A stretch of 64,000 bases of DNA from Paludibacteraceae bacterium. Its GTDB lineage: Bacteria > Bacteroidota > Bacteroidia > Bacteroidales > Paludibacteraceae. Below are positions 551-62,092 of this stretch, piece after piece (position 1 is the stretch's first letter; each line of letters opens with the position of its first letter). The DNA lies in assembly GCA_017451525.1 (NCBI GenBank), contig JAFTOD010000005.1:186001-250000 (forward strand), written 5' to 3'. The notes under the pieces were generated by a model. It had not been told where the DNA came from. It did not search any database and saw only the letters and a list, made by a program, of their open reading frames with translations. The translations under genes were made by a program, and so were the position numbers.

Positions 551-2077
551 TTATTTCTCCCAACCGTCAAACACTTCAGGGCCATACACATTGTCCTCGT
601 TAGCGTCATGAAGCGGAGCCCATAGTTGTGCAAAGAATGGGTTCTTCTTTGCCACTTTGTCCCATTGCCATGGACGAGCATTCTTCTCGCCCGCATAAGG
701 ATAAGGCATACACTCCTCACACCAGTGACCACCCAGCAATACCAAGCGTGGCGTAGCGGTAAACTTATGCCCCTCTGCGCACTCCCACTCCAATGGAGTA
801 TCCCAATCGCCTTGCACCATGTCTTTGGATAGGCACTTGCCTCCGCGGAAAGCCGCCGCTTTTTGCATATCCTCAATGGTAAACAATGCTTTGGGCTTTT
901 GCTCATCGTAGCCGTGGTCAAGCAATACATATTCCTCGCTATTGTGCGATACATCGGTATGCTTCCAATTTGGAATGGCTTTGTATGCCTCCAAAGTGCC
1001 ATAATATGCGCTGATGCGTTGGGTCTTGTTGTGCTTAATCCACCATTGCGTACCATGCTCCTTAGACATCGCCATGGCGTACATCGCAAGTTTCACGCAG
1101 CGTGGGAAGAGCTTGGCAATCTTGGTCTTAGCCGCGAACTTGATGCCCCAAGGCACACTGTCTGCCTTAGCCATCTGCTTGAAATACTCTTTCACTGGCA
1201 CATTGGCGCGGAAGTGCAAGTAGTTCTCCAAGCGGTCGCCGTCGATATACCACATACCGTGGAAATTGCGCGTAGTAAACCACTTTGCTTCAAAGATTTT
1301 CTCTGGGCGAGGGCAACCGATGGCATCAAGAAGCAGGCACTCAAACTCGTAGTTGCTGATGCGGTACTCTTGACCAGAGCCGATATTGTAGTAGTTTTTC
1401 CAGAACTCCTCTGGCACTTCGTCGCGGCAGACACGCTCAAGAAGGCGTCCACTATCTTCTACCGTTGCCCATTCCAACACACCTCGGATAGGCACATGGA
1501 ACATGATTGGGTCGTAGTTCTTCAAGATAGCAGGATAGAGGATACCTGACTGACGAAGCGCAACCCATTGTTTGATAGGCGAGTTGGTGATGATGCGCTC
1601 TGCTTGTGCTTTAGTCAAACCATAGTGGTCATAAGCCGATACGCAGATTGGGTCGCCAGCGCGTCCCCAGTGCAATGGCTCGCGGCGATCACCCATCTGA
1701 GCTACACTACCGATATACACCACTTTAGGTTGCTTTTCCTCTGGTTGCGCCAACACCGCGTCGCGAATATAAGTCGCAGCGGAGATATTGGTGCGGAGAG
1801 TTGCCTTAGGACGATAGTCTGCTTGTGGAGATACCATACCGCCCACGTGGAGTACGATGTCGGCGCCTGTTACACCACGAAGGATATCGTCGTAGTTGGT
1901 AAGGTCGCCCCATATGATTTCTACTTTGTCAGCCAAAGGCGCAAGTTTCTCTTTATTTTTAGCGCTTGGACGTGCTAAGATACGCAAGTTGTATTTCTCA
2001 GGATAACGCAGGATCTCTGTCATACCTGCGTATCCCATAGTGCCAGTAGCACCAGTCAGGAAGATAGTTTTTTTCAT
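551..2077 (-). CDS. SDR-family NAD-dependent epimerase/dehydratase with C-terminal zinc-knuckle-like domain
   Basis: About 508 residues from the ATG at 2077; an in-frame ATG at 2110 is less likely because MKKTIFLTGATG begins directly at the Rossmann strand. Residues 1-300 are an extended SDR: nucleotide-binding TGATGTMG, an acidic residue at the end of a later strand (WGDL), and a catalytic YDHYGLTKAQAE segment giving the YxxxK signature. The remaining ~200 residues are unusual for an SDR. They end in a Cys/His-rich segment (ECAEGHKF, then HWCEEC) that looks like a small metal-binding knuckle, followed by a Trp-rich tail. The substrate is unknown. The promoter at 2122-2153 serves this gene. 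The helicase lies just downstream on the same strand. Confidence 0.88.
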   Translation of the reverse strand: MKKTIFLTGATGTMGYAGMTEILRYPEKYNLRILARPSAKNKEKLAPLADKVEIIWGDLTNYDDILRGVTGADIVLHVGGMVSPQADYRPKATLRTNISAATYIRDAVLAQPEEKQPKVVYIGSVAQMGDRREPLHWGRAGDPICVSAYDHYGLTKAQAERIITNSPIKQWVALRQSGILYPAILKNYDPIMFHVPIRGVLEWATVEDSGRLLERVCRDEVPEEFWKNYYNIGSGQEYRISNYEFECLLLDAIGCPRPEKIFEAKWFTTRNFHGMWYIDGDRLENYLHFRANVPVKEYFKQMAKADSVPWGIKFAAKTKIAKLFPRCVKLAMYAMAMSKEHGTQWWIKHNKTQRISAYYGTLEAYKAIPNWKHTDVSHNSEEYVLLDHGYDEQKPKALFTIEDMQKAAAFRGGKCLSKDMVQGDWDTPLEWECAEGHKFTATPRLVLLGGHWCEECMPYPYAGEKNARPWQWDKVAKKNPFFAQLWAPLHDANEDNVYGPEVFDGWEK

Positions 2078-2121
2078 TGTTCTTTTCGGATTTGTGGTGT
2101 CTTTACACACTTTTACGACTG

Positions 2122-2153
2122 CAAAGGTAGTGTTTTTTTATGAGATATGCAAA
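2122..2153 (-). promoter_or_regulatory. Bacteroidetes-type promoter for the SDR/zinc-knuckle gene
   Basis: On the minus strand TTTG (2153-2150) is followed after 20 nt by TACCTTTG (2129-2122), a perfect match to the -33/-7 elements of the Bacteroidetes housekeeping sigma factor. The predicted start lies about 40 nt upstream of the ATG at 2077. Confidence 0.8.
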
Positions 2154-2268
2154 ATGAAGTGTATTTTTCTTTATATTTCGTATCTCTTTTACTTCTCTTT
2201 GGCATCCATTTTCTAAATACTCACGAACGCAAAACGAGTGTCAAAATAACTATATATCCGCTATAAAT

Positions 2269-2312
2269 CTTTAGTGATTCTTTAGTGATTCTTAGGTGAT
2301 TTATAGGTGATT
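2269..2312 (+). repeat. Four 11-bp direct repeats upstream of the methyltransferase-nuclease operon
   Basis: Four consecutive 11-bp units occupy 2269-2279, 2280-2290, 2291-2301 and 2302-2312. The first two are identical (CTTTAGTGATT), the third is CTTAGGTGATT and the fourth TATAGGTGATT. The period is close to one helical turn, so a protein bound to each unit would sit on one DNA face. The array lies 90 bp upstream of the promoter of the restriction-modification-like operon. A regulatory role is inferred; it may also be a simple tandem repeat. Confidence 0.7.
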
Positions 2313-2401
2313 CAGCAACTTTCACTATAGGATTACCGAATAATTATACGCCCGATTATCCTCAAAATATTAAATACTCCTAACACTTTTTCCACGCAAA
2401 A

Positions 2402-2433
2402 TTTGCATATCCGCAAATTTTATTGTACCTTTG
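2402..2433 (+). promoter_or_regulatory. Promoter of the structured leader and methyltransferase-nuclease operon
   Basis: TTTG (2402-2405), a 20-nt spacer and TACCTTTG (2426-2433) match the Bacteroidetes promoter exactly. The -33 element sits in a palindrome, TTTGCATATCCGCAAA (2402-2417). The whole stretch 2402-2434 is identical, except for one base, to the promoter at 39003-39035. Transcription should begin near 2440, leaving a leader of about 280 nt before the methyltransferase ATG. Confidence 0.85.
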
Positions 2434-2441
2434 CCGTTGAT

Positions 2442-2705
2442 TTGGTAAAGCGTTACCAATCATAACATATTTTTATTAACAGCATTGGCTATTATTTCGC
2501 GCATACCGAAAACCCTGCAAGATTAACGGAGATAGCAAGAAATAATAACAAAAGGCATTCCTGTGGATGTCTTTTTCCTCTCGTATATAACCATGCTCAC
2601 ACGCCCAGTGTGAGTTCTTAGAGAGGAAAAGGTCTCCTTGCAGGGTTACCTTGGTATGCGATAAGAACTTGCACTTTTTCTTATCGCATGCGAAACATAA
2701 TAGCC
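2442..2705 (+). ncRNA. Large structured RNA element (leader of the methyltransferase-nuclease operon)
   Basis: Directly after the predicted transcription start is a perfect 7-bp hairpin (2442-2448 with 2453-2459). Then comes a nested multi-branch fold. The closing helix pairs 2487-2495 with 2697-2705 and 2496-2500 with 2690-2694. Inner helices are 2501-2507/2653-2659, 2511-2521/2637-2647 (11 bp), 2571-2582/2621-2632 (12 bp with one G-U) and 2596-2602/2608-2614. A side hairpin pairs 2660-2667 with 2678-2685 and can extend to 11 bp by competing with the second helix. No long open frame crosses it, and its 3' foot ends 15 nt before the downstream ATG. It matches no RNA family I can name. It could be a cis-regulatory leader, a separate small RNA or a MITE-like insertion. 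Confidence 0.7.
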
Positions 2706-2720
2706 GTAGATCATTAATCT

Positions 2721-3776
2721 ATGGCGGGAAATTCTAGTTTGCAGGCTGCAAATAAAGCAAAGCAAGATGAGTTTTATACACAACTCACTGACATCGAAAA
2801 AGAACTTCGTCACTATACCGAACATTTTCGGGGTAAAGTTGTATTCTGCAACTGCGACGATCCTTACGAAAGTAATTTCTTTAAGTATTTTGCTCTAATG
2901 TTCAATAAGTTAGGATTAAAGAAACTTATTGCTACTTGCTATAATGGTTCACCGGTATCGGGTAATGAGTTGTTGCTTGACTTTGGCGATACAGTAGATG
3001 ACCCCAAGAAAGTTGCCTATAAAGTAGAGATAACAGAGGTTATCGATACCAACGGTGACGGGGCTATCAATTTGGCAGACATTCAATACCTTATGCAAAA
3101 TGACAAGAATGTTATTTCCGTATTGAAAGGCAATGGCGATTTCCGTAGCGAGGAGTGTATCGAATTGCTTAAACAAGCCGATATTGTGGTAACCAATCCC
3201 CCTTTCTCTTTGTTTAGAGAGTATATTGCTCAACTAGTAGAACATAACAAAAAGTTTCTAGTAATCGGCAATCAAAATGCGTTGACTTTCAAAGAAATAT
3301 TCCCTCTTCTAAAAGATAATAAAATCTGGCTTGGATATAAAGCAGGCGATATGTCTTTTACAGTTCCAGCCTATTACGAAGCTCGAGAGACCAGATATTG
3401 GCAAGATGAAAATGGACAAAAATGGAGAAGTCTAGGTAATATTTGTTGGTACACAAATTTAGACTTGCCAAAACGACACGAGGATCTTATGCTGTACAAG
3501 CAATATACCATAGAAGAGTTTCCTAACTACGACAATTATGCTGCTATAAATGTAAATAAGATTTCCGATATTCCTTATGATTATGATGGTGTTATGGGAG
3601 TTCCTATTACATTTTTTGACAAACACAATCCTAATCAGTTTGATATTATTGGAGCCACAGAAAGCGAAGGAAAAGGATTCTCAAACGGTTTGTGGAAATC
3701 TGAAAGTAAAGTAGCACAACCCCTGATAAATGGCAAAAGAATATACAAACGTATTTTCATTCGAAGAAAACGCTAA
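2721..3776 (+). CDS. EcoRI-type adenine-specific DNA methyltransferase
   Basis: 351 residues. It carries the hallmarks of the EcoRI methylase family (N6-adenine methylation from S-adenosylmethionine): CNCDDP near residues 43-48, the catalytic NPPF at 159-162 followed by SLFREYIAQL, then IGNQNALTFKEIFPLL and the late MGVPITFFDKHNP block. Residues 108-120 contain an EF-hand-like loop (DTNGDGAINLAD); I believe related proteins share this, but could not check. The gene is followed 12 nt later by a DUF262-HNH nuclease, so it probably protects self DNA from that enzyme. Its base composition is more A+T-rich than its neighbours, which suggests acquisition by transfer. The recognition sequence cannot be predicted. 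Confidence 0.9.
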   Translation: MAGNSSLQAANKAKQDEFYTQLTDIEKELRHYTEHFRGKVVFCNCDDPYESNFFKYFALMFNKLGLKKLIATCYNGSPVSGNELLLDFGDTVDDPKKVAYKVEITEVIDTNGDGAINLADIQYLMQNDKNVISVLKGNGDFRSEECIELLKQADIVVTNPPFSLFREYIAQLVEHNKKFLVIGNQNALTFKEIFPLLKDNKIWLGYKAGDMSFTVPAYYEARETRYWQDENGQKWRSLGNICWYTNLDLPKRHEDLMLYKQYTIEEFPNYDNYAAINVNKISDIPYDYDGVMGVPITFFDKHNPNQFDIIGATESEGKGFSNGLWKSESKVAQPLINGKRIYKRIFIRRKR

Positions 3777-3788
3777 AACACTAATTCT

Positions 3789-4871
3789 ATGCAAATCGAA
3801 TTACATGAAATCACTATCCGTGAGTTGGCGAACGGGTATCAAGACAATGCCGAAGGTGGCGTAGTGGCTTTTGGTGGCAAACTGGATGTGCGCCCACCTT
3901 ATCAACGCGAGTTCGTATATAAGGACAAGCAGCGTGATGCGGTCATCACCACAGTCAATCAGGGCTTTCCGCTCAATGTGATGTATTGGGCAGACAAAGG
4001 CGACGGCACGTACGAAGTGATTGATGGTCAGCAACGTACCATCTCTATATGTCAATATGTGAATGGCGATTTTAGTTATAATCTCAGTTATTTTCATAGT
4101 CTGCCTTCTGACCAACGTGAGAAGTTTTTGGACTACAAACTGATGGTTTATATTTGCACAGGTACAGACAGCGAGAAGCTGGGTTGGTTTAAGACGATCA
4201 ATATCGCAGGCGAGAAACTGACCGACCAAGAATTGCGCAATGCAGTCTATTGCGGCAGTTGGGTAAATAGTGCAAAAATATGTTTCAGCAAAAGCGGTTG
4301 TGTGGCATACAAACTGGCAAGTGACTATCTCAATGGCAGTTGCATCCGCCAAGATTACTTGGAGACGGCTATTTCATGGATTAGCAAAGGGCGTATTGAG
4401 GAATATATGAGTAAACATCAAAACGACCCCAACGCCAACGAACTATGGCTATATTTCACAACCGTCATCAACTGGGTACAAACCGTCTTCCCAAAAAAAC
4501 GTAAAGAGATGAAAGGGCAAGATTGGGGTGCGCTGTATGACCAGTTCCACAATCAAGCATGGGATACTGCTGCCTTGGAGGAAGAGATTGCACGATTGAT
4601 GAAAGATAGCGATGTGAGCAACAAAAGAGGTATTTATCCGTATGTATTAGACAGAAAAGAGCATCACTTGAATATCCGTGCGTTTGATGACAACACCCGT
4701 CGTGAGATTTACGAAAAGCAACAGGGCATTTGCCCACATTGTGGCAAACACTTTGATATTGAGTTCATGGAAGCCGACCATATTACACCATGGTCAAAAG
4801 GCGGTCGCACCGTAGCAGAGAACTGCCAAATGCTTTGCCAAGAATGTAACCGCAGGAAGTCTGCAAAGTAG
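3789..4871 (+). CDS. DUF262 domain protein with C-terminal HNH nuclease
   Basis: 360 residues. The N-terminal DUF262 (ParB/GmrS-like) domain shows PPYQREFVYKDKQRD and the signature IDGQQRTISI at about 78-87; in GmrSD and SspE relatives this motif is needed for nucleotide hydrolysis. After a helical middle part the C-terminus (about 310-358) is an HNH nuclease with CPHC, ADHITPWSKGG and CQEC motifs, that is, four zinc-binding cysteines around a beta-beta-alpha-metal core. DUF262 nucleases known so far cut modified phage DNA, or act with modification systems. Pairing with a methyltransferase 12 nt upstream suggests a two-gene restriction-modification or modification-sensing defence system. No experimentally described system with exactly this gene pair is known to me. 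Confidence 0.88.
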   Translation: MQIELHEITIRELANGYQDNAEGGVVAFGGKLDVRPPYQREFVYKDKQRDAVITTVNQGFPLNVMYWADKGDGTYEVIDGQQRTISICQYVNGDFSYNLSYFHSLPSDQREKFLDYKLMVYICTGTDSEKLGWFKTINIAGEKLTDQELRNAVYCGSWVNSAKICFSKSGCVAYKLASDYLNGSCIRQDYLETAISWISKGRIEEYMSKHQNDPNANELWLYFTTVINWVQTVFPKKRKEMKGQDWGALYDQFHNQAWDTAALEEEIARLMKDSDVSNKRGIYPYVLDRKEHHLNIRAFDDNTRREIYEKQQGICPHCGKHFDIEFMEADHITPWSKGGRTVAENCQMLCQECNRRKSAK

Positions 4872-5149
4872 CAGATTATGAGTGCAACTGATTTTCTGCG
4901 ATTATCACTTCTCCTTCGGCAAGGGTTCGGTATCCCTTCAGAAAACGGAAAGGTGAAAACGGGAAACTGAATTTTGATAAACCGCTACCCATGAACATCG
5001 CAGTGGTAATCGATTGGTAGCCAAGTGGTATGCGAACTGAAAGCCAGCCAAATGTCGCCCATAGATAAGGCACAACTAGCCCACAGATGTGCAACAATGG
5101 TCGCGAAGTGGTCGCGTAGCTCGAAAAGAACTTGAAGAAACGCTTTTGC
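4872..5149. repeat. Intergenic copy of a dispersed degenerate repeat
   Basis: No convincing gene. Part of the stretch is a diverged copy of sequence at about 56150-56320, in the opposite orientation. The best match is 5098-5120 against the reverse complement of 56220-56242, 23 nt with one mismatch. Beyond it, blocks such as GCACATCTGTGGGCT (minus strand) and TTTGGCTGGCT still align. A further fragment with GCACATCTGTGGGCT occurs near 62190. It marks the right edge of the methyltransferase-nuclease island. Confidence 0.5.
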
Positions 5150-6763
5150 CTATTGTTTGTGTTTACCTGCCACGAGTTGTTGCCATTTCTGCTTGGCGAA
5201 GTCCCACGTGTTGTTGATGAGTTGTACGCCCCAATGTTTGCTCTCCTCCTCATTTGTTTCTTCAAGATATTGAGCAGCAAGCATAGCATCGTTGTCGGTG
5301 ATAACCAATAGTTGGTCGCCCACTTCCAATTCGGAATTGCCCGTTGGCACAAAGAAGTCTTCGCCACGGCGCACCATGATAACCAAGGTCTTATCTGGGA
5401 AAATGAGGTTCTTGAGCATATTGCCATGCGCAAGCATTTCCTCTTTCACCTCAATCTCTGTGGCAGAAGACTCTACCTCCTCTGGCAGATCAATATCAAA
5501 GTGGATGAGTTTCTTGAGTTCTACAGGCGGAGTAGCCAGTTTGAGTTTCTTTGCTACCACCGACAAGGTTGTACCTTGCGCGATGAGCGAAACAATGGTG
5601 CAGAGGAAGACTATATTGAATATCAAATCAGCATGAGGCACATTGTTCGCCTCGCACATAATAGCGAAGATGATAGGTACAGCACCCTTCAATCCTACCC
5701 AACTGAGCAGCATCTTGTCGTTGCGCTTGTACTGCTTGAAGGGCCACATACAGAGGAATACCGCTATAGGGCGCGAGATGAAAATCATCACAATACTGAT
5801 TATTAGACATGGCAGCAAGACCTCTAATTGGAACAACTCGTGCGGACGCACCATTAGACCCAAGACAAGAAAAATCACCAATTGACTCAACCATGTCAGT
5901 CCATCAAAGAAACTGCGCGTTTGGCGTTTACGAGTGAACTTGCTATTACCAATCACCAGACCACCGATATACACTGCCAAATAGGTATTACCCTTTAGGA
6001 AATAGGTGATACTAAAGATAAAGATACATGCTGTAAGCACCATAAGAGGATACAGCGACTCATTGCCAAGGTCCGCCTTACGCATGATACTAACAATACC
6101 TTTACCAAATATAAAACCAAGCACCGCACCCATAATCAGCTGAATAACAATATCCTGTATTACAGAAAGAGCTGTTACTTGATGGCTGGTAGCAGTGACA
6201 ATACCAATCATAGTAGTGGTAAGCACATACGCCATGGGGTCGTTGGCACCTGACTCCAACTCCAACAAAGGACGAAGGTTATGCTTAAGTCCTATTTTGT
6301 TGGTACGAAGAATAGAGAATACCGAAGCAGAGTCAGTGGATGACATCGTGGACGCCATTAGCATTGCCACAGCAATACTCACACTTGCCACTGAATGTAG
6401 CCAACCAAACACATAATAAGTAATCACGCCCGTCACGAGCATGGTGATTAGCACACCGATAGTCGCTAAAGTCAGACCAGGCACCATCACAGGGCGGATA
6501 TCCGAAAGTTTGGTATCCAAACCACCCGAGAAAAGGATAATACACAGCGCGATTGTACCAATGGCTTGGGCTGAGCCCACATTCAGCATATAACCCACTC
6601 CGTCGTCGTTGATGAGGCGTCCAATACCGTCAGGACCGAACAACATACCCACTGCTAAGAAGAGCAACAGGGCAGGTACACCAAATTTATAGCCGATTTT
6701 ATCGGTAAAAATGCTCGCAAAAAAGAGGAGCGAAAGGACGAGGAGAATGAGTTCTACTTGCAT
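5150..6763 (-). CDS. nhaP2: Potassium/proton antiporter (CPA1 family) with C-terminal TrkA-C-like domain
   Basis: 537 residues. About 400 residues of N-terminal sequence contain twelve or so hydrophobic segments, starting IGYKFGVPALLLFLAVGMLFGP. The segment ESGANDPMAYVLTTTMIG carries the acidic pair used for cation binding in CPA1 exchangers, and WVGLKGAVPIIFAIM is typical of the family. The cytoplasmic tail (about 420-500: LVIMVRRGEDFFVPTGNSELEVGDQLLVITD) is a TrkA-C-like nucleotide-sensing domain as in CvrA/NhaP2. It should exchange cytoplasmic K+ or Na+ for H+ across the inner membrane. The ion is inferred from the family. Confidence 0.87.
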   Translation of the reverse strand: MQVELILLVLSLLFFASIFTDKIGYKFGVPALLLFLAVGMLFGPDGIGRLINDDGVGYMLNVGSAQAIGTIALCIILFSGGLDTKLSDIRPVMVPGLTLATIGVLITMLVTGVITYYVFGWLHSVASVSIAVAMLMASTMSSTDSASVFSILRTNKIGLKHNLRPLLELESGANDPMAYVLTTTMIGIVTATSHQVTALSVIQDIVIQLIMGAVLGFIFGKGIVSIMRKADLGNESLYPLMVLTACIFIFSITYFLKGNTYLAVYIGGLVIGNSKFTRKRQTRSFFDGLTWLSQLVIFLVLGLMVRPHELFQLEVLLPCLIISIVMIFISRPIAVFLCMWPFKQYKRNDKMLLSWVGLKGAVPIIFAIMCEANNVPHADLIFNIVFLCTIVSLIAQGTTLSVVAKKLKLATPPVELKKLIHFDIDLPEEVESSATEIEVKEEMLAHGNMLKNLIFPDKTLVIMVRRGEDFFVPTGNSELEVGDQLLVITDNDAMLAAQYLEETNEEESKHWGVQLINNTWDFAKQKWQQLVAGKHKQ

Positions 6764-6770
6764 TGTTTTT

Positions 6771-6820
6771 TAGTTTAGAGAACGCGCCTTAGGCGCTACA
6801 GTTTAGAGTTTAAAGGCGAG
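6771..6820. repeat. Short intergenic repeat with GCGCCT-T-AGGCGC palindrome
   Basis: The spacer contains GAACGC, a palindrome (6784-6796) and GTTTAGAGTTTAAAGGCGAG. A related stretch (GAACGC, small hairpin, CTATAGTTAAAGGCGAG) lies at 27957-27989, and inverted versions of the GAACGC/GTTTAGTG theme occur at 45381-45422. This looks like a dispersed intergenic repeat family. Confidence 0.5.
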
Positions 6821-6822
6821 GA

Positions 6823-7254
6823 TTATTCCACCCCAAGAATCTGCTTGATAGCTTCTTGCCAATAGTCGAGTTCGTGGTAGCCCTGAGCAATGCGTGGACC
6901 GCCTTCCATGGGGCAGAAAACTACTGTAGGATAACTGCGCACACCAAACAATGCTGCCACTTCGGGCTCTTTCTCTGCGTCTAACGTATAAACATAGACC
7001 TTGCCCTCGTATTGTTTGGCTACTTGCTCCAAGATTGGGTGCAACTTCTTGCACCAACCGCACCATGTGGTGGAGAAATCAATCAAACAAGGTTTATCAC
7101 CAATATATTTCCATTGGGGTTGCTGACCTGATGCGAGATCGTAATAGCAAACTTTCGCCTTAAAATCAGCGGTTGAGAGATAAGTCAATCCCTCAGCCAT
7201 GGTTGTAAGGGCAAAAAACACCATCAAAATGGTAAAAAAGACTCTTTTTCGCAT
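6823..7254 (-). CDS. Secreted thioredoxin-fold protein
   Basis: 143 residues. A signal peptide (MRKRVFFTILMVFFALTTMAEG) leads into a thioredoxin domain with the redox motif CGWC in FSTTWCGWCKK and the cis-proline segment VRSYPTVVF. It probably works in the periplasm as a thiol-disulfide reductase, similar to DUF255/thioredoxin_7-type proteins of Bacteroidetes. The reading frame is complete. A TAnnTTTG box (TAATTTTG, complement of 7274-7281) lies 20 nt upstream of the ATG, between this gene and divergent aroB. Confidence 0.88.
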   Translation of the reverse strand: MRKRVFFTILMVFFALTTMAEGLTYLSTADFKAKVCYYDLASGQQPQWKYIGDKPCLIDFSTTWCGWCKKLHPILEQVAKQYEGKVYVYTLDAEKEPEVAALFGVRSYPTVVFCPMEGGPRIAQGYHELDYWQEAIKQILGVE

Positions 7255-56044: not shown

Positions 56045-56502
56045 TAGGTATCCTATAAATTAGGGACATAAAGTAGTACGACGGAACGTACTCCGAGCAA
56101 TATACCCGAAGAGTCCTTGCTATAGAAAATAAGCGCAAGCATAGAACAAAACAAAGAGATATACGGAGTATCTGTGGAAGTTCAGCGGGCTTTCTATGGC
56201 TATTGCAAGTTCTCTGTAGGCTACGCGACCACTTCGTGACCACAAATGCCTATCTATAACTTATTAGTACCATATCTGTAGGCAAGATTTGGCTGGCTGT
56301 ATTTTTCGAAACCATTTGTACAATGCGCCCACTTGTTTAGGCTTTAGAGATATGGGCAATCTTGTAGAGTGAGGACTCTTTGGGCGCAATGCTCAAATTG
56401 CCATTTAAGGCACTTTTCTAGCTTGATTTTTTATTTGGAGAGATATAGAAGGTGCATGGGAAAGTAATAATCGAATGATTTTATAAAGACAAACGGAATC
56501 TA
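56045..56502. repeat. 458-bp intergenic stretch with a degenerate dispersed repeat
   Basis: I find no gene. Part of it (about 56150-56320) is a diverged inverted relative of 4872-5149, best at 56220-56242. Words such as GCGGGCTTTCTATGGCT recall GTGGGCTTTCTGTGGCT at 62221-62237. The rest shows nothing I can interpret. Confidence 0.45.
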
Positions 56503-61840: not shown

Positions 61841-61874
61841 CGGGGTCCCCGACGAGCCTCGTGGGCGAGTGGGG
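61841..61874. repeat. 34-nt direct repeat, copy downstream of the riboswitch aptamer
   Basis: Matches 62041-62074 at 32 of 34 positions; it begins CGGGGTCCCCGACGAGCC on the plus strand. The two copies are exactly 200 bp apart and flank the conserved aptamer core. It lies where the expression platform is expected. Confidence 0.85.
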
Positions 61875-61884
61875 ATGCCCTTAT

Positions 61885-62092
61885 GCATGCAGCAGGTCTT
61901 CTGACTTATTGCTCGTTTGCTTAGCCTTCCCAGCTTGTCAGTTGACAATTGACAGTTAGCCAGTGACTTAGATACGAAGCAAACGATTTTGCAAATCACA
62001 GCAGCGGGTCTGTGCAGGAATCTCACCTGCTTCCCTTAAGCGGGGTCCCCGACGAGCCATGTGGGCGAGTGGGGTGCTCTTAACTGAATGCG
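61885..62092 (-). promoter_or_regulatory. Cobalamin riboswitch
   Basis: The minus strand contains the B12-box landmarks in order: AAGGGAAGCAGGTGAGATTC, then CTGCACAGACCCGCTGCTGTGA, and further on AAGTCAGAAGACCTGC. These match the conserved core of adenosyl/methylcobalamin riboswitches. Transcription should start near 62090 from the promoter at 62097-62128, and the element precedes btuG, giving repression at high B12. An extra ~34-nt repeat sits in its 5' part (62041-62074). Confidence 0.92.
62041..62074. repeat. 34-nt direct repeat, copy in the 5' part of the riboswitch
   Basis: Plus-strand CGGGGTCCCCGACGAGCC continued by ATGTGGGCGAGTGGGG. In the RNA it lies between TTAAG and CTTAAGGGAA, that is, as an insertion in a peripheral helix of the aptamer. 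Confidence 0.85.

Follow-up and report, generated by a model that had tools for sequence, protein, structure and literature searches.

The known controls of restriction-modification (R-M) genes are C proteins, antisense RNA and autorepression of the methylase, each of them private to one system. In Type III and Type I R-M systems and in BREX, target recognition is exchangeable within one component and the nuclease is constant, an arrangement that the locus described here may share. This locus lies in a stretch of 64,000 nucleotides (nt) from a Paludibacteraceae bacterium of the order Bacteroidales (GenBank assembly GCA_017451525.1, contig JAFTOD010000005.1, positions 186,001 to 250,000), hereafter the window, whose numbering is used throughout. 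It consists of a gene for an EcoRI-family N6-adenine methylase and a gene for a nuclease with DUF262 and HNH domains, preceded by a folded leader RNA (Table 1). On balance, we favor the reading that this is a mobile two-gene R-M system under a common cis-acting leader RNA that works as an attenuator, with a methylase of exchangeable cassettes setting the target of the nuclease; we regard this combination as somewhat probable.

A structured leader RNA and the genes that follow it

A preliminary description, made from the letters of the window, had proposed a folded leader upstream of the methylase gene. The fold is borne out: the segment from 2440 to 2720 has a predicted energy of −95.3 kcal/mol compared with −57.1 kcal/mol (standard deviation 4.4) for dinucleotide shuffles, which gives a z-score of −8.6, and none of 200 shuffles was as stable. 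The RNA model comprises 218 positions and five helices, and the window leader scores 55 bits (E 6.2e-12) against model R1, which was built from 17 leaders with the window excluded. Common helices with compensatory changes were found in two MAFFT alignments that were not fitted to a structure. In the first of these, 17 of 37 pairs were changed on both sides, with 48 such cells compared with 14.6 after shuffling (0 of 500 shuffles). The alignment of 49 members fitted to the model gave 31 of 37 pairs and 269 cells (71.8 when shuffled, 0 of 500), and when the partners were slid by 1 to 3 columns the proportion of paired cells fell from 95% to at most 49%. Two considerations count on the other side: the number of pair types in the first MAFFT alignment was matched by 19 of 500 shuffles, and both covariation counts favor structure because the structure was derived from these same sequences. 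We conclude that the leader represents a structured RNA family, well supported and outside Rfam 15. With its covarying structure and its position upstream of a gene, it has what is expected of a cis-regulatory RNA that would be transcribed with the gene.

The window leader had no match in Rfam 15 at the gathering score or at E ≤1 (two chance matches had E 4.5 and 5.3), and six matches at E ≤1 in 14 other loci all lay off the leader RNA. We found no description of the leader RNA in the open-licence literature, although it may be in print elsewhere, and the available portions of two structured-RNA surveys (PMC8040213, PMC2864571) do not describe it. Several other identities were considered and set aside. 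6S RNA, which came to mind for the long hairpin, has no Rfam match here even at E 10. A mobile repeat or retron-like copy was rejected, as blastn gives no second full leader copy in the genome; the first 34 nt of the leader recur there twice at 88%, and the remaining matches are both shorter and weaker. Matches to a 15-mer from the 5′ motif in at least 120 stretches of viral contigs were taken as chance and not used. A leader peptide starting at an ATG in helix P4 was judged by eye to be conserved in neither frame nor length, and part of a shorter RNA class (below) is without the ATG. The related leader L017 matched none of the plasmid and phage records by blastn.

The leader was also found in other genomes, before many genes besides this pair. 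Among 393 genomes of the order, 38 matches to a wider model scored 86 bits or more; below these the scores drop straight to 55 bits or less. The first model also found all 38 (at 42 bits or more); 12 of them were members of its training set, each of these standing before an EcoRI-type methylase. The first genes after the 38 matches encode EcoRI-type methylases (19), other R-M or defence proteins (9), probable envelope proteins (4) and others (6). The nine comprise a Tsp45I-type pair, an N6_N4 methylase with REase_II, two MmeI-type IIG enzymes, a D12 methylase with HNH_2, two further N6_N4 methylases (one followed by a ResIII gene), a DEAD helicase with HNH and a DrmD-like SNF2 protein. The four envelope genes, a label inferred from family names, are three of the sulfatase family and one acyltransferase; the last six are a GDSL lipase, an SPFH protein, two small helix-turn-helix open reading frames (ORFs) and two unassigned genes.

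Within the family of the window, a match at E ≤1e-8 was obtained in 118 of 250 genomes, some of which have as many as five. From 73 sampled matches, 71 downstream ORFs were obtained: 36 EcoRI-type methylases, 8 other R-M genes (L390, L392, L397, L403, L426, L431, L434 and L442), 14 probable envelope genes (8 sulfatase, 3 MBOAT, 2 acyltransferase and 1 glycosyltransferase) and 13 others (1 DUF2334 and 12 with no family). Across the phylum, a strong match was found among 395 genomes only in the window's own, and three others gave weak matches of at most 44 bits. Scoring in these searches was limited to 5 or 9 candidates in each genome, so that the leader counts and absences are lower bounds. The training sets raise the proportion of EcoRI-type methylases, whereas no other class was used to train R1, and the class counts are raw tallies, not scaled to a background rate of gene classes.

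Leaders of different genes are mixed in the RNA tree, where that of the MmeI-type L331 groups with those of the EcoRI-type L266 and L273 (0.97) and that of the sulfatase L314 with that of the EcoRI-type L230 (0.97). Because leaders of unrelated genes intermix in this way, the leader seems to move between genes. That it stands before many unrelated restriction systems and genes for surface enzymes is a hint that several lines of phage defence share a single controlling RNA. If so, the same switch would act on type II, IIG and III R-M systems, on helicase-nuclease systems and on enzymes that remodel surface glycolipids, and one signal would let the cell both switch on restriction and alter its phage receptors. 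An RNA leader common to many unrelated R-M systems and surface enzymes would point to several layers of phage defence being coordinated through RNA. Weighing against this is that 6 of the 38 and 13 of the 71 downstream genes are neither R-M nor probable envelope genes.

Further leader-like RNAs were seen outside these counts. A shorter class of about 165 nt, scoring at most 55 bits and excluded from the leader counts, is found in L332–L341 (for example L335 803–974 and L341 843–999, in RNA-strand coordinates). Its layout and U-run element are similar by eye, and it precedes genes for lipoprotein-like or secreted-looking proteins in other Bacteroidales. In L338, a DUF805 RNA (RF03081) lies directly downstream of the short-class leader at 1080–1145 and is repeated at 2044–2112. 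The genome of the window itself has one more divergent leader match (47 bits), upstream of a lipoprotein-like ORF, all others being at or below 27 bits.

The methylase-nuclease pair and its target

The preliminary description had placed an EcoRI-family methylase beside a DUF262-HNH nuclease in a compact two-gene unit, and the Pfam assignments agree (Table 1), with 12 nt between the two genes in the window. The NPPF motif of the methylase (residues 159–162) is invariant across 30 aligned methylases. In the nuclease, DGQQR (residues 79–83) and C315, C318, D330, H331, N345, C350 and N354 are invariant among 29 aligned sequences, the window included. At the C-terminus of the nuclease, Pfam (E ≤1e-3) gave HNH families and no DUF1524. 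The structure model of the nuclease has a predicted local distance difference test score (pLDDT) of 87. In Foldseek its N-terminal domain resembled ParB/Noc and BrxU and its C-terminus HNH nucleases, all weakly: the best E was 2.5e-3, BrxU came second at 3.8e-3, and none reached E ≤1e-3. The methylase model was poor (pLDDT 67.5) and was not used.

The best 80 of 233 nuclease relatives (62–99% identity, from many phyla) were examined for their neighbors. In 77 of them a homologue of the methylase lies less than 1 kb upstream, the widest gap being 933 nt; in the remaining three (L012, L036 and L040) the contig starts at most 362 nt upstream of the nuclease. Since the pair is conserved in 77 of 80 loci, the two genes are not rarely adjacent. 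Methylase relatives occur in 52 of the 393 genomes of the order. The unit was also put forward as a candidate new defence module, and for the protein pair this is not supported: the PADLOC profiles MTase_II (PDLC03297) and REase_II (PDLC03418) cover both proteins almost end to end, adjacent methylase and nuclease genes are annotated in several plasmid records, and the pair is a known and widespread kind of R-M system. In the parts available to us, two papers on DUF262 (PMC8713573 and PMC12707154) do not describe a methylase with a DUF262-HNH nuclease.

Some copies of the pair have features of their own. In L044, L068, L078, L250 and L267, 570–930 nt separate the two genes and hold an extra ORF that by eye is ORF6N-, KilA-N- or DinD-like. 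Three loci of Neisseriaceae (L026, L043 and L057) have short tandem repeats close to the methylase start (CGCAAGTT, CACCG and GCTCAGT units by eye), which suggests phase variation instead of an RNA leader. The methylase gene of L010, from a related genome at the same chromosomal site, has one in-frame stop; its nuclease is 99% identical to that of the window. An EF-hand-like loop, DTNGDGAINLAD, lies in the window methylase at 3045–3080 (residues 109–120); several relatives have it as well, whereas others lack it.

Two segments of the methylase vary between loci whose nucleases are nearly constant. The window, L009, L010 and L011 have nucleases that are 98–99% identical, with identity in methylase residues 205–245 (cassette 1) and 306–351 (cassette 2) down to 26% and 23%, respectively. 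The two cassettes also part from each other: the window and L009 have cassette 1 in common (95%) but not cassette 2 (33%), and L010 and L013 have cassette 2 in common (86%) but not cassette 1 (28%). Among 105 complete pairs, which include two pairs of identical loci, 303 locus pairs had cassette 1 at least 75% identical but cassette 2 less than 40%, and 47 showed the reverse; cassette 1 was below 40% in 70 of the 117 locus pairs whose nucleases are at least 80% identical. The rank correlation with nuclease identity was 0.43 for the methylase backbone, 0.03 for cassette 1 and 0.15 for cassette 2, and no 20-residue stretch of the nuclease tracked either cassette above 0.16. These comparisons show, at the level of sequence, that each of the two methylase cassettes is reassorted without regard to the other or to the nuclease. 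Nor does the leader go with the cassettes, as L010 and L011 have leaders that are 97.9% identical and cassettes that are 26% and 36% identical.

We infer that target recognition resides in the cassettes and that the nuclease, having no matching specificity of its own, takes its target from the methylase, which may thus set the target of the pair. The nuclease would get its specificity either by forming a complex with the methylase or by reading methylation. The nuclease had also been suggested to depend on its context, and the confinement of cassette shuffling to the methylase lends this indirect support. GmrSD type IV enzymes cut modified DNA and are stimulated by NTP; an NTP dependence of the present nuclease, raised in the preliminary description, is conjecture, as is phage protection by the pair. 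If the nuclease does follow a methylase that swaps cassettes, two genes would suffice to reach new specificities in a compact way. Against this stands the fact that cassette divergence need not mean different targets. A rival reading is an ordinary type II R-M system with an incidental folded 5′ untranslated region, both enzymes reading the same site independently and the cassettes diverging neutrally. The PADLOC matches to REase_II and MTase_II and the wide occurrence of the pair without a folded leader agree with such a system, but a leader that covaries and recurs before unrelated genes does not look incidental, and cassettes that swap under near-constant nucleases speak against independent recognition; we consider it unlikely. 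A bolder joint proposal, in which an undescribed RNA class is the master control of a Bacteroidales anti-phage regulon and the pair is a minimal R-M system defined by its methylase, with a constant DUF262-HNH nuclease, is in our estimate conceivable but falls short of an even chance.

A candidate attenuator in the leader

The loop and 5′ arm of the P5 hairpin repeat the 5′ strand of P4, and P5 can therefore capture the 3′ strand of P4. In the window, the two strands concerned are complementary over 14 nt, two G-U pairs included. Over the 49 members, the longest complementary run between the P4 3′ strand and P5 averaged 8.8 compared with 7.25 when partners were swapped between members (0 of 500). 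For the 26 members whose sequences diverge, the averages were 8.7 and 6.3 (0 of 1000). The alternative duplex has −12.7 kcal/mol compared with −9.4 kcal/mol for swapped duplexes (100 swaps). The 10 nt after the 3′ element are at least 60% U in all 49 members. Terminator-like hairpins exceeded the shuffled number in two Saccharibacteria leaders, the two that were scanned.

An intrinsic attenuator has this layout, and the leader is possibly one. The P1-P2-P4 domain would fold first. When this domain is stable, the 3′ element would fold on itself as P5 and hide the U-run, and the operon would be read; when it is open, the 3′ strand of P4 would pair with the 3′ element to give a GC-rich stem ending at the U-run, and transcription would stop. 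The trigger might be a ligand, a protein or another RNA. Several observations do not fit easily with attenuation. The alternative stem has about 40 nt in its loop and needs P1 and P2 open because it crosses both helices, a simple terminator scan (short loops only) gave nothing in the window leader, and the P5 pairing is weak, with a run of 4–6, in 8 of the 49 members.

The regions upstream of 123 methylase relatives differ widely in folding: 48 have a z-score of −4.5 or below, 60 are above −2.5 and 15 lie between. The strongly folded group includes Bacteroidales, two Lentisphaerae/Lentisphaeria and five Saccharibacteria loci; by eye, one of its members (L044) seems to be unrelated, an inspection that did not extend to L257. 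As 60 of the 123 relatives are without a well folded upstream region, the enzymes do not require the RNA in order to work. The copies of the pair in Lentisphaerae and Saccharibacteria (L034, L049, L046, L059, L066, L069 and L077) have strongly folded leaders of their own; several show a similar repeated-strand design by eye, with no match to the model, a likeness that could come from shared origin or from convergence.

The RNA might instead act on translation, through a pre-start hairpin (in relatives GATTGATAG..CTATCAATC) that competes with an invariant 5′ motif, GCATTAGCTATTA, and so gates ribosome access. Both elements can be seen by eye in many members, and a possible closing helix, GGCTATTAT/ATAATAGCC, is kept in the window, where it would put the 3′ end 15 nt upstream of the start codon. 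A possible pseudoknot, in which 2490–2498 alternatively pairs with 2539–2547, is based on complementarity, not covariation. However, the window has only a degenerate form of the pre-start hairpin, and pairing of the 5′ motif lacks covariation support because the motif hardly varies. A translational switch appears to us a minor possibility. Less probable still is that the RNA is the binding site of a specialized elongation factor, a NusG paralogue of the UpxY or LoaP type, through which R-M and envelope operons would be antiterminated: the genes after the leader that probably encode envelope enzymes, and the U-run element in the leader, would suit such a factor. A direct partnership of the RNA with the methylase or the nuclease, as guide or scaffold, is very improbable; the RNA is linked to nucleic-acid enzymes, and there is a likeness of the HNH domain to its counterparts in Cas9d and IscB, with scores far under their cut-offs, but many homologous pairs have no folded leader, the RNA also precedes sulfatase-family and acyltransferase genes, and L010 and L011 keep nearly the same leader despite different cassettes.

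Insertion, flanking features and relation to known systems

Acquisition of the module by transfer, as supposed in the preliminary description, is supported by empty sites in genomes of the same genus and by the spread of the relatives over many phyla. The empty sites show the module to be an insertion. In the same-genus genome L461, matches to window positions 599–2084 and 5162–6763 are separated by 14 bp, and since L462 already matches from 4931 (to 7285), the right boundary of the insert is not fixed. Among the 29 best same-genus loci, without the window's own and with at most 1.5 kb of flank each, none has the methylase or nuclease at the insertion site. The flanking epimerase and exchanger genes adjoin in 22 of them, with 14 to 478 bp between the matches; in the other seven, three of which lie near a contig start, the epimerase was not seen. 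The downstream exchanger region was matched in 49 of 61 same-genus genomes. GC content is 0.37–0.39 at 2001–4000, 0.49–0.51 to the left and 0.44–0.47 at 4001–7000. The dispersed repeat at 5042–5134, close to where the insert ends on the right, has more copies in the genome of the window and in two other genomes of the genus.

The elements TTTG and TACCTTTG upstream of the leader agree by eye with the promoter consensus of Bacteroidota; a scan for E. coli-type promoters gave 6 promoter-like sites compared with 8.5 in shuffles. The 11-bp tandem array that was assigned to the unit exists, at 2268–2313 with 4.2 copies and 77% matches, and is upstream of the putative promoter. It is not part of the block common to the window, L009 and L011, because their similarity to the window starts at 2403 (L009) and 2421 (L011); L010, at the same chromosomal site as the window, does carry the array. 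Elsewhere in the window, a cobalamin riboswitch was found at 61874–62076 on the minus strand (73.5 bits).

Table 1. Coordinates of the leader, the two genes and associated features in the window.
Feature	Position	Strand	Basis or remark
Putative promoter, TTTG (2402–2405) and TACCTTTG (2426–2433)	2402..2433	+	Read by eye
Structured leader RNA	2482..2706	+	R1/R2 model match 2482–2685; fold z −8.6
Possible closing helix, 5′ strand GGCTATTAT	2487..2495, partner 2697–2705	+	Minimum free energy fold; without covariation
P1 helix	2501–2507 / 2653–2659	+	Window numbering of model helices
P2, 5′ strand	2512..2521, partner 2637–2646	+	Helix 2: 8 of 9 pairs changed on both sides
P4 terminal hairpin GCTCACAC...GTGTGAGT	2595..2615	+	Helix 4: 96.9% of cells paired, 6 of 9 pairs changed on both sides
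P5 hairpin	2658..2687	+	2662–2675 can pair with P4 3′ side 2607–2620; U-run after
EcoRI-family N6-adenine methylase	2721..3776	+	351 aa; Pfam PF13651 EcoRI_methylase E 1.9e-151, residues 7–350; NPPF motif
Methylase variable cassette 1 (aa 205–245)	3333..3455	+	Sequence comparison across loci
Methylase variable cassette 2 (aa 306–351)	3636..3773	+	Sequence comparison across loci
DUF262 (GmrSD_N)-HNH nuclease	3789..4871	+	360 aa; Pfam PF03235 GmrSD_N E 4.1e-20, PF01844 HNH E 5.2e-15
Dispersed repeat near right edge of insert	5042..5134	+	73% inverted copy at 56298–56206
Inserted region, absent at L461 empty site (same-genus genome)	2085..5161	.	Flanking matches 14 bp apart

Among described RNAs, the leader can be set beside the FopS paralogous small RNAs of Bacteroides, likewise a multicopy RNA family in Bacteroidales. 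FopS RNAs are about 65–70 nt long, have a single-stranded 5′ end and a terminator, and act in trans to repress SusC-like genes (PMC11697453); membership of the leader in this family was rejected, given its model of 218 positions and five helices. Riboswitches and transcription attenuators have in common with the leader the 5′ position, a covarying domain and a switching strand followed by a U-run, whereas the leader is without an Rfam match and precedes many unrelated gene families.

On the protein side, GmrSD, BrxU and SspE also have an N-terminal DUF262 domain with the DGQQR motif and a C-terminal nuclease of the His-metal type. In contrast to these, the nuclease described here has HNH (PF01844), with DUF1524 not found, is 360 residues long compared with 580 for BrxU, and stands beside an N6-adenine methylase in 77 of the 80 loci. 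Unlike Type III, Type I and BREX, the system has two genes only, and the pair is without a Res helicase, HsdR or BREX protein. Type II R-M systems, as recognized by the MTase_II and REase_II profiles of PADLOC, are alike in their adjacent genes and near full-length matches; what sets this locus apart from them is the presence of two exchangeable methylase cassettes with a constant nuclease, together with a common RNA leader.

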